From NCBI GenBank assembly GCA_003215355.1, contig QCKL01000006.1, positions 1 through 64,000 on the forward strand: 64,000 nucleotides of DNA. Reading direction: 5' to 3'. The translations under genes and the position numbers were made by a program. The notes under the pieces are model-generated. The model was not told the DNA's origin, made no database searches, and saw nothing but the letters and a program-made list of their open reading frames with translations. The DNA comes from Prochlorococcus sp. AG-409-O23 (GTDB taxonomy: Bacteria; Cyanobacteriota; Cyanobacteriia; PCC-6307; Cyanobiaceae). Numbering within the stretch: the stretch's first letter is position 1; each line of letters starts with the position of its first letter. Below, piece by piece: positions 40,800 through 51,574 of the stretch.

Positions 40800-41858
40800 A
40801 TGAGCGACTCCCTGCCTTTGTTACTTCGCGCCGCGCGTGGCGAATCAGTGGAGCGTCCTCCTGTTTGGATGATGCGCCAAGCGGGCAGATATATGAAGGT
40901 CTATCGCGATCTTCGCGATAGATATCCCAGTTTTAGGGAACGTTCAGAGAATCCTGAGCTCTCCTATGAAATATCAATGCAGCCCTTTAGGGCATTCCAG
41001 CCAGATGGAGTAATACTTTTTTCCGATATCCTTACGCCCCTTCCCGGCATGGGAATCAACTTTGACATCGTTGAGAGCAAAGGCCCACTCATTCAGTCCC
41101 CTATCCGCGATTTAGCCCAAGTCAAGGCCCTCAAACCACTTGCCCCAGAAGAATCAATGTCTTTTGTTGGAGAAGTACTTGGGCGCCTCAGAGAGAGTGT
41201 TGGTAACAAAGCTGCGGTATTAGGATTTGTAGGTGCCCCATGGACCCTTGCTGCATACGTAGTTGAAGGCAAAAGCAGCAAAAATTACGCAGTAATAAAA
41301 GCAATGGCCTTCCAAGAGCCTCAGATTTTGCATCAACTGTTAGATCATTTCGCCGAGTCAATTGCTTCATACCTCCGCTTCCAGATCGATTCAGGGGCAC
41401 AAGTTGTTCAAATGTTTGATTCTTGGGCAGGGCAACTCAGTCCAATTGATTACGACACTTTCGCAGCTCCTTATCAAAAGAAGGTAGTGAAACTAGTCAA
41501 GGAAACACATCCAGATACTCCAATGATTCTTTATATCTCTGGGAGTGCTGGTGTATTAGAGCGCATGGGACAAACAGGCGTCGATATTGTTTCTCTTGAC
41601 TGGACAGTTGATATGGCTGACGGATGCACCCGGCTTCCAACAAACATTGGCATTCAGGGGAATGTTGACCCCGGACTGCTATTTGGGAATGCTGAGATCA
41701 TTCGCAATCGAATTGTTGATACCGTCCTTAAAGCAAAAGGTCGCAAACATATTCTCAACCTTGGGCATGGAATCCTCCCTGGCACACCAGAAGATAGTGC
41801 AAGAGTCTTCTTCGAGGCAGGCAAGGGTGTAAATGATCTAATCAAAGCCTCAACTTGA
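40800..41858 (+). CDS. hemE: Uroporphyrinogen decarboxylase
   Basis: 352 residues from the ATG at 40800; a TTG at 40797 directly before it would add one residue. The N-terminal signature [17 protein letters not shown] and the second signature [16 protein letters not shown] are intact, as are [12 protein letters not shown] and [14 protein letters not shown]. The enzyme makes coproporphyrinogen III, feeding both heme and chlorophyll. Its stop overlaps the start codon of the next gene (TTGA), implying coupling. Confidence 0.97.
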
Positions 41859-42871
41859 ACAAGTCGCGAATACTTATTACTGGAGCAAGTGGTTGTGTAG
41901 GTCAATACACAGCCGCTTGGCTGCTAGAAAATTCTGACGCTGAAATAATTCTCTGGCTCAGGGATCCCAAGAAACTAACTGCCATCTCTACTAATAACTC
42001 TAGGGTCAAACTTTTAATAGGCGACCTAAGAGAACCAGTAAAATATGCACATGAATTATCTACAGTTACTCGTTTAATACATACAGCCACAGCCTGGGGT
42101 GATCCCCAGAGAGCCTTGCAGGTAAATGTAATTGCAGTTAAAGCCTTACTAAAACTACTTAATCCAGAAGTAATTGAACAAATAACATACTTCTCAACTG
42201 CAAGCATTTTAGATAAGAATCTTGAGCCACTAAAAGAAGCTCATCTATATGGAACCGAGTACATTCAAACAAAGGCAAAATGCCTTCAGGAACTAGAGAA
42301 GCACCCACTTGCAGAAAAAATAATTGCGGTTTTCCCAACCCTTGTTTTCGGTGGACGAATAGATGGATCTTGTCCTTTCCCTACAAGTTATCTGACAGAA
42401 GGAATTCACGAAGCGAGCAAATGGTTATGGCTTGCTAGATGGATACGAGCTTACTCAAGATTTCATTTCATACACGCTGCAGACATTGCATACATCTGTG
42501 GACATCTGGCAACAAGACCTCATATTACGAATTTTGAGCAAAATAAAAGCCCCATAAAAAAACTTGTTCTTGCCCAGCCGGCAGTTTCCATCGATAAAGC
42601 AGTGGATGAACTTTGCATATGGAGAGGGCTTAGGAATACTCCTAGGCTTCCCCTAAAAGGCTGGCTAATAGAAATCCTCATATTGATTCTTCCCATCCAA
42701 ATCAATGATTGGGATCGTTTCAGCATTAATCAACGTCATTTCATCCATGATCCAATAACCGCACCAGAGAGTTTTGGAGGTAAAAGTCACGCAAGAACTC
42801 TCCAAGAAGTATTCGCAGATTCAGGGCTACCCAAAGTGAAGAAGCTCCGAAAGCGAGCTAAACTGTTCTGA
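41855..42871 (+). CDS. NAD-dependent epimerase/dehydratase-type (extended SDR) protein
   Basis: 338 residues from a TTG that overlaps the hemE stop by 4 bases. The Rossmann motif [19 protein letters not shown] is at residues 6-24, followed by [16 protein letters not shown] and a catalytic-type [12 protein letters not shown] (Tyr-x-x-x-Lys). [12 protein letters not shown] corresponds to the active-site loop. This fits the atypical extended SDRs of photosynthetic organisms, some of which act on sugar nucleotides or bind RNA; substrate unknown. It is followed by petE after only 15 bp. Confidence 0.8.
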
Positions 42872-43417: not shown

Positions 43418-43636
43418 ATGTCGCTAGAAGCACTCTCAGACTTTATTCATGCAGCTGAACACAGCTCCAGCCTTAGAAGAGCCCTTAAAAATTGCGCAGA
43501 CATTGAAGCAATTCTGGTTATAGCCAATAATTATGGCTTCAAAGTAAATCAAAAAGATCTTATGGATGGTGACATAGCTTTTCGTATAAAAGATTGGTTT
43601 AAGAGAAGTCAAATCAATCCAATCAATAAGAATTAA
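43418..43636 (+). CDS. Stand-alone Nif11-like small protein
   Basis: 72 residues. MSLEALSDFIHAAEHSSSLRR, given here in part, then LKNCADIEAILVIANNYGFKV and an acidic DLMDGDIAF match the Nif11 domain pattern (helix, gap, VxxIAxxxGF). Nif11-type leaders occur in picocyanobacterial lanthipeptide precursors. Here there is no Gly-Gly or Gly-Ala cleavage site followed by a Cys/Ser/Thr-rich core; the C-terminus is short (KDWFKRSQINPINKN). No LanM-like enzyme is in the window. Likely a small regulatory or nitrogen-stress protein; function not known. Confidence 0.7.
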   Translation: MSLEALSDFIHAAEHSSSLRRALKNCADIEAILVIANNYGFKVNQKDLMDGDIAFRIKDWFKRSQINPINKN

Positions 43637-50249: not shown

Positions 50250-50615
50250 ATGACTGACGAACACAAATATACAAATGGCACCGTGGAAGCAGAGGTTCTG
50301 GAAAGCTCTGTAATTGATGAAGGGGTCTTCCGCAAAGTTTTGATTAAAGCAGGTCGAGTCATTGCGCAGCCTGCTCTAGAGGCAATGGAAATGATCATGG
50401 ACAAAGAAACTCCGCCTCAAGCTCGGGTATCAATGATGGCCGCGCTTGCTTACTTGTTGATGCCATTAGATTTAGTCCCAGATATTATTCCTGCAGCTGG
50501 CTTCAGCGACGACCTTGTTGCGCTAACAGCTGTAATAAGCCTTTGGAGTAATCACATAACCCCTGAGATTCGAAATAGAGCCAGACTCAAATTGGACAAA
50601 TGGTTTCCTGTATAA
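50250..50615 (+). CDS. DUF1232 (YkvA-like) small protein
   Basis: 121 residues from the ATG at 50250 (a GTG at 50238 adds four). The core VSMMAALAYLLMPLDLVPDI followed by PAAGFSDDLVALTAVISLWS is the DUF1232 signature, a short hydrophobic hairpin with PxDxxPD. Function is not established. It precedes the next small gene by 8 bp and probably shares its transcript. Upstream DNA is AT-rich. Confidence 0.85.
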   Translation: MTDEHKYTNGTVEAEVLESSVIDEGVFRKVLIKAGRVIAQPALEAMEMIMDKETPPQARVSMMAALAYLLMPLDLVPDIIPAAGFSDDLVALTAVISLWSNHITPEIRNRARLKLDKWFPV

Positions 50616-50623
50616 GCCTCATC

Positions 50624-50938
50624 ATGTCACGTTGGTCTACAGAAATCGAAGAGGAACTAGCCCTTTTACTTAGAGACTGGCTTAAGCATCAAGGCAGGAC
50701 ACAGGCTGATCTTCGTAAGAGTCTTCAAGCAATGTCTACACGAATGCCATCCTTACTAGAAGTACTCCAAAAAGAATATTCTTTAGGAGGCCTACCAAAA
50801 TTAGCTGCACGTTTGTGCTCTATCGAAGATGAATGGTCTCGCAATATTCCTCACTCAGAAGAGAAGGGAAAGCCATCAGACCCATTTGGGCAACTAGACC
50901 TGCTTTTACAAGAGATTCGTCATGACTGTGATGGATAA
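50624..50938 (+). CDS. Conserved hypothetical small protein, possibly helix-turn-helix-like
   Basis: 104 residues from ATG 50624 (MSRWSTEIEEELALLLRDWL). It is helical and includes HQGRTQADLRKSLQAMSTRM, which has the spacing of a helix-turn-helix (QADLRKSL..), then LLEVLQKEYSLGGLPKLAAR. This resembles phage-repressor-type N-terminal domains, but I do not recognise a named family. The C-terminal 30 residues are likely flexible. It starts 8 bp after the DUF1232 gene and probably shares its transcript. Confidence 0.6.
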   Translation: MSRWSTEIEEELALLLRDWLKHQGRTQADLRKSLQAMSTRMPSLLEVLQKEYSLGGLPKLAARLCSIEDEWSRNIPHSEEKGKPSDPFGQLDLLLQEIRHDCDG

Positions 50939-51055: not shown

Positions 51056-51574
51056 TTACCAGCGCAAGGAAAGCCATGTTGTCCCTGGATGAGGATCCGT
51101 ACGCTCAAAGCGGTGCAAGCGGTTTGGAGCCAAATACAAATGATCTCCTGCACTTAAGTCAACTAAAGCATCAGGTCCTTTAAAACTAAAACTCGCACTA
51201 CCACGCAAAATGAGAATCCATTCTTTCTTGTCTTGATCATGCCAAAGCCCCTTTGGAGTTTTTACAGCCGAAGAAAGAACAAGCTCTAACTTCCAATCTG
51301 AACCTTCTTGTATTAAATGCCTTTGCTCATGGCCATTTAAGGGTATTGCTTTTGCCAATAAGTTATCTTCAAGCTTTAAATGCTCCTCCTGCTGTAATTC
51401 ACCCCAACGGCGTCCAATCTCATACCCCCAAGACCTAGCCAACTCAACAACCTGATTATGATCTGTGCAAGAAGCCAATACTTCTCTTCGATTAGGAACA
51501 TCATCCAAAGATTTAACCATCATCTGAAGGTGCTTAACCTTTTCAAGGAATCTTTGAAGGTCTACTTCAGCCAT
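51056..51574 (-). CDS. Nif11-like domain fused to a cupin domain
   Basis: 172 residues in two modules. Residues 1-60 (MAEVDLQRFLEKVKHLQMM, ending DHNQVVELARSWGYEIGRRW) follow the Nif11 pattern of two helices and a VxxLAxxxGY turn. Residues about 95-172 are a cupin barrel: GLWHDQDKKEWILILRGSAS, then VDLSAGDHLYLAPNRLHRFE and RTDPHPGTTWLSLRW, with His and Glu in the first box and His in the second as likely metal ligands. The second box keeps PNRLHRF. Nif11 modules usually are peptide leaders; a cupin partner is unusual. Role unknown. Confidence 0.75.
   Translation of the reverse strand: MAEVDLQRFLEKVKHLQMMVKSLDDVPNRREVLASCTDHNQVVELARSWGYEIGRRWGELQQEEHLKLEDNLLAKAIPLNGHEQRHLIQEGSDWKLELVLSSAVKTPKGLWHDQDKKEWILILRGSASFSFKGPDALVDLSAGDHLYLAPNRLHRFERTDPHPGTTWLSLRW

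Follow-up and report, generated by a model that had tools for sequence, protein, structure and literature searches.

Why a Nif11 domain should be joined to a cupin, and which of the two halves matters, is the question raised by the gene at 51056-51574 of the window (the whole stretch of DNA analysed, 64,000 nucleotides of contig QCKL01000006.1 from Prochlorococcus sp. AG-409-O23). The fusion, here termed nif11-cupin, is already known from small cyanobacteria of both the sea and fresh water; our analysis adds that its halves separate in evolution and that the Nif11 half is the one kept in Prochlorococcus. The initial annotation had drawn a real 172-residue open reading frame (ORF) and left out its strand, which is minus; the plus strand of the same interval has many stops. 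The gene is divided as follows:

51056..51574, minus strand: nif11-cupin gene, ATG ORF of 172 amino acids plus stop (TIGR03890 full length, E 1.9e-73)
51398..51574, minus strand: Nif11 module, residues 1-59, with C-terminal GRRWGE (PF07862, E 3.9e-11; model helices 3-25, 29-34 and 39-48)
51335..51397, minus strand: variable linker, residues 60-80 (mean pairwise identity 0.31 in 62 fusions; low predicted local distance difference test (pLDDT) scores around 61-70)
51059..51334, minus strand: cupin half, residues 81-172 (strands in 82-171; 2OPK Z 16.6; phmmer against 2opk, 2.9e-10)

Architecture and distribution of the nif11-cupin gene

The window protein matched the NCBIfam family TIGR03890 'nif11_cupin' (hypoth_equivalog type) over residues 2-172 and profile positions 1-171 of 171, scoring 245.7 bits and passing the cut-off of 159.45 bits. 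A Nif11 domain in the first 60 residues, as initially annotated, was borne out by Pfam Nif11 (PF07862; residues 1-57, 43.5 bits against a cut-off of 23.8) and by a strong match to module profile A3, of which the window module is itself one of the 12 rows. Since the combination is curated as TIGR03890 and a 'Nif11 domain/cupin' of picocyanobacteria is named in the available part of PMC10783134 (2023), the fusion is not new, and the earlier suggestion that it was undescribed does not stand. In an alignment of 62 rows, for which 61 of the 80 named fusion loci were used (the others being omitted only to limit its size), mean pairwise identity was 0.62 in the Nif11 half, 0.55 in the cupin half and 0.31 in the linker.

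Among 60 relatives, 36 showed a match, comprising 22 with both halves, nine with the Nif11 half only and five with the cupin half only. A survey of 400 genomes of the window's family, which we take to be Cyanobiaceae, gave matches in 349: by subtraction about 214 at fusion level (E 1e-36 or better, a score that needs both halves), 130 in a one-half score band (including G090, in which a run of N marking an assembly gap cuts the gene) and five weak. The expectation that the fusion is conserved across picocyanobacteria is thus upheld. The remaining 51 genomes gave no match; several of them are incomplete, but 22 belong to the 251 good genomes (at least 90% complete) in the set. Across the class, 38 of 145 genomes matched, 14 from the window's family and 24 from other families, the latter having just the cupin half; none of the 145 carried the fusion outside the window's family. 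Of 290 confirmed fusion loci, 80 named ones were kept, and their titles are Prochlorococcus, Synechococcus, Cyanobium, Vulcanococcus, Aphanothece and unnamed cyanobacteria. One metagenome-assembled genome titled Bifidobacterium breve (L085, CALPNT020000067.1) also carries the fusion and is most likely a mislabelled cyanobacterial bin.

The gene order in the window (sigma factor, DUF1232 protein, unknown protein, nif11-cupin, cytochrome c, YciI-like, AbrB-like, trpA) holds around most fusions examined, those at L022 and L025 being different. A search with the module profile found exactly one strong module copy, fused or free, in 25 of 28 genomes (G090, with its assembly gap, among the 25), and in none of the 25 did fused and free copies occur together. 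In Cyanobiaceae, nif11-cupin is conserved, occurs once per genome and keeps much the same surroundings. A 112-residue protein without a Pfam match (50600-50938, plus strand) adjoins the fusion and occupies the same place in most loci examined. Promoter and terminator scans gave signals no higher than in shuffled sequences. Phage origin or carriage was considered and rejected: none of 65 pattern matches in a viral contig collection was confirmed, and a PHROGs search returned nothing below E 0.2.

The Nif11 module without the cupin

In three genomes, G011 (L026), G018 (L027) and G075 (L157, L208, L215), a free Nif11 ORF of 60-66 amino acids occupies the place of the fusion, with the same neighbours and orientation, and ends at or just past GRRWGE. 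Only about 100-140 bp separate its stop codon from the next gene, and the cupin coding stretch is therefore gone. No cupin remnant was seen in frame past the stop in L026 and L027, and no separate cupin match for the three genomes was among the matches listed in the 60-relative and 400-genome surveys. A tree of six flanking proteins, with the root assumed on the Cyanobium-like side, nested all three within a clade of Prochlorococcus loci that carry the fusion (support 100, with low values at its inner nodes), and because of this nesting the fusion is taken as ancestral for them. In-place loss of the cupin was not found in print, in a search to which subscription journals were mostly external.

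The free module is widespread and well preserved. In small-genome lineages the match ends after the GRRWGE stretch, with a stop codon following immediately or only a few residues on. All 67 genomes searched from the one-half band (7 + 60) carry a strong module copy in a short open frame, which measured 60-87 residues in each of the further 60, themselves a part of those in the band left to search. For one genus, the module was present in 39 of 61 genomes, where absences are due partly to incomplete assemblies, and in 20 of the 22 that are at least 90% complete. Twenty-nine free copies from one genus gave a mean non-synonymous to mean synonymous substitution ratio (dN/dS) of 0.14 over 311 of 406 pairs (after removal of L192, which has another length, of identical pairs and of those whose dS did not exceed 0.05), a ratio biased downwards since the 30 best-scoring loci from which the set was drawn favour conserved copies; judged on codon changes, it shows purifying selection on the free module. 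Two free modules off the ancestral site, L133 (G010) and L134 (G003), lie near genes whose starts resemble, by eye, Pcb chlorophyll-binding antenna proteins.

The explanation that we favour, and to which we give roughly an even chance, is that Nif11 acts as an autonomous module for docking, with the cupin as a dispensable, ligand-binding or dimerising partner that was later deleted in several Prochlorococcus lineages. By this account, a stand-alone cupin and a Nif11 gene were probably joined in the Cyanobiaceae ancestor; the module most likely docks on a partner protein inside the cell, while the cupin would bind a small ligand, or simply dimerise, and so modulate docking; and after deletion of the cupin in several Prochlorococcus lineages the lone module would have been kept working. 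Since the module persists by itself with its sequence preserved and is single-copy, its function most likely has no need of the cupin; being helical, 60 residues long and devoid of precursor features, it most likely works through contact with another protein. The initial annotation suggested an interaction role for Nif11 in place of a leader role, which agrees with the retention of the module without the cupin and with its sub-cut-off leader score (below). A more specific form, in which Nif11 is the working part and no peptide precursor, and the cupin an optional ligand sensor discarded by streamlined Prochlorococcus, possibly more than once, so that the core task would fall to the bare module, is put forward tentatively.

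Besides the downward bias of the dN/dS ratio, several points weigh against this explanation. The module is missing from two of the 22 good genomes of the genus mentioned above, and so is not indispensable everywhere. In-place absence of the cupin is shown for three genomes only, because six other free-copy genomes (G010, G003, G030, G016, G026 and G032) carry the gene at a different place, with the ancestral neighbours persisting in several; these copies may have been relocated or may be replacements. One loss common to G011, G018 and G075 was not rejected (approximately unbiased test, p 0.28), and the tree leaves one versus several losses undecided. Where present, the cupin is not a decaying appendage, since its conservation (0.55) comes close to that of the Nif11 half (0.62). 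Both the docking partner and the cupin ligand are putative.

If the free module is set beside the fusion, the lineages that lost the cupin and kept Nif11 amount to a natural experiment separating the halves, and strains with fused and free modules can be compared for a non-leader role of Nif11.

Fold and metal positions of the cupin half

The cupin initially annotated in the last 80 residues was supported by the fold and not by the profile: Cupin_2 (PF07883) reached 20.6 bits (E 3.6e-4) on residues 111-162, under its cut-off of 27.2, which two stand-alone cyanobacterial homologues passed with 43.0 and 45.0 bits. Modelling from the single sequence gave a poor result (pLDDT 46.9), and a model built from the 62-row alignment (mean pLDDT 88.5, predicted template modelling score 0.59) was used instead; it shows three helices, a weak linker and, at 82-171, a cupin rich in strands, the cupin half having a pLDDT of 92-97 per block of ten residues. 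In a fold comparison covering residues 66-172, the nearest structure was 2OPK (Foldseek E 1.1e-9; Z 16.6, root-mean-square deviation 2.4 over 106 aligned residues, 27% identity), and many other cupins matched (Z 11-16.6, 2OPK included). On the evidence of the model, residues 82-172 are a cupin (double-stranded beta-helix) by predicted fold, despite the sub-threshold Cupin_2 score.

These data bear on a different explanation, which we consider unlikely, namely that the cupin is a small enzyme, that Nif11 only localises or stabilises it, and that the free Nif11 copies belong to a separate paralogue persisting by chance. Metal-dependent cupins use the ligand set HxH...E...H. The window protein has H112/Q114/E118/H154 at these positions and the family mostly Y/Q/E/H: Gln114, Glu118 and His154 are each found in 61 of 62 fusions, a conservation of the cupin half that would suit an enzyme, whereas position 112 is Tyr in 47 of 62 and His in one, the window protein itself. 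The canonical HxH motif is absent from the family, which speaks against the enzyme explanation, although metal might be bound in another way. The enzyme explanation gains from the existence of stand-alone homologues in other cyanobacteria and as 2OPK. The WYDQ...EW pattern of the fusions also occurs in seven of eight stand-alone cyanobacterial homologue rows (two genes being represented twice), the exception having EF. A separate paralogue, however, leaves unexplained both the free copies that replace the fusion in three genomes and the lack of coexistence in all 25 module-positive genomes. As to context, five stand-alone cupin loci were taken and the cupin located in three (L139, L142 and L143), among which no shared neighbours were seen by eye on raw ORF starts, which is weak evidence.

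Precursor features and comparison with known systems

Two further features of the window concern the reading of Nif11 genes as precursors of ribosomally synthesised and post-translationally modified peptides (RiPPs):

43418..43636, plus strand: separate free Nif11 protein of 72 amino acids (PF07862, E 2.5e-11), 7.4 kb from the fusion and not part of it
41855-42868: epimerase (PF01370, NAD-dependent epimerase/dehydratase family), beside plastocyanin and the free Nif11 gene

The second, free Nif11-like protein had been noted correctly in the initial annotation, and its Nif11 match, like that of the nif11-cupin protein, is far beyond chance. Its gene sits between those for plastocyanin and a ClpB-like protein, beside the epimerase, in an order that is the same in five of five loci examined (L168-L172). 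In 12 genomes of the 28-genome module-profile set, the module, whether fused or free, also had a weak Nif11 match at a distance of 6-8 kb.

Genome-mining software calls Nif11 genes as RiPP genes, and by that logic nif11-cupin would encode a RiPP precursor or belong to a RiPP cluster, which we regard as very improbable. The leader family TIGR03798 gave the nif11-cupin protein only 14.6 bits against a cut-off of 32.3. Fourteen of the 62 fusions have, somewhere in residues 41-82, a GG dipeptide that could serve as the cleavage site, but the window protein has none and none is conserved in the family; moreover, the module is followed by a folded cupin. No YcaO was found in the source genome (69% complete); a search for LanM (DUF4135) gave no match in any control genome and so counts neither way. 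Our guess is that the nearby epimerase is the one of PMC10783134, and if so it provides no evidence for D-amino acids, being a member of the NAD-dependent epimerase/dehydratase family. By the tests run, nif11-cupin is not a RiPP precursor, and that reading is disfavoured. Elsewhere in the source genome (contig C1, L001:1429-1644, minus strand), another Nif11 protein ends in PGEYN and passes the TIGR03798 cut-off with 50.5 bits; it resembles the '-GEYH/N-' group described in the available part of PMC10783134.

In the literature, Nif11-derived precursors were defined by Haft et al. 2010 (PMC2887384), where the word cupin is absent from the portion of text available, and a literature search found no mention of TIGR03890 by name. 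The words Nif11 and cupin both occur in PMC9426513 as well. As far as their accessible parts go, PMC9723758, PMC2784084 and PMC10904595 mention Nif11 proteins or Unk10 and give no help for the function of nif11-cupin, and PMC3170327 and PMC5804319 mention cupins that could not be tied to the gene.

Four known systems can be compared with nif11-cupin. The leader peptides of TIGR03798 (N11P, prochlorosin-type) share its N-terminal Nif11 domain (PF07862), whereas nif11-cupin falls under their cut-off, lacks a conserved GG and has a folded cupin instead of a core peptide. Unk10 of marine Synechococcus (107-118 amino acids) likewise has an N-terminal Nif11 domain within a longer picocyanobacterial protein; compared by description only, from the available part of PMC3877281, it differs in that no cupin is mentioned there and in its location in a chromatic acclimation island. 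The PDB entry 2OPK (REUT_A1446, titled putative mannose-6-phosphate isomerase) shares the fold of the cupin half and has WYD....DEW at the usual metal-motif site, but it has no Nif11 half, and its isomerase title is an annotation. The members of TIGR03890 have the same domain order as the window gene, which matches over the full length above the cut-off and shows no difference from them. The free modules, in contrast, match only the first 59 positions of TIGR03890: all four of the free copies compared aligned over residues 1-59 alone with 66-91 bits, below the cut-off, so that automatic naming by this family would miss them, and the same four reached only 17-28 bits against the leader family TIGR03798.
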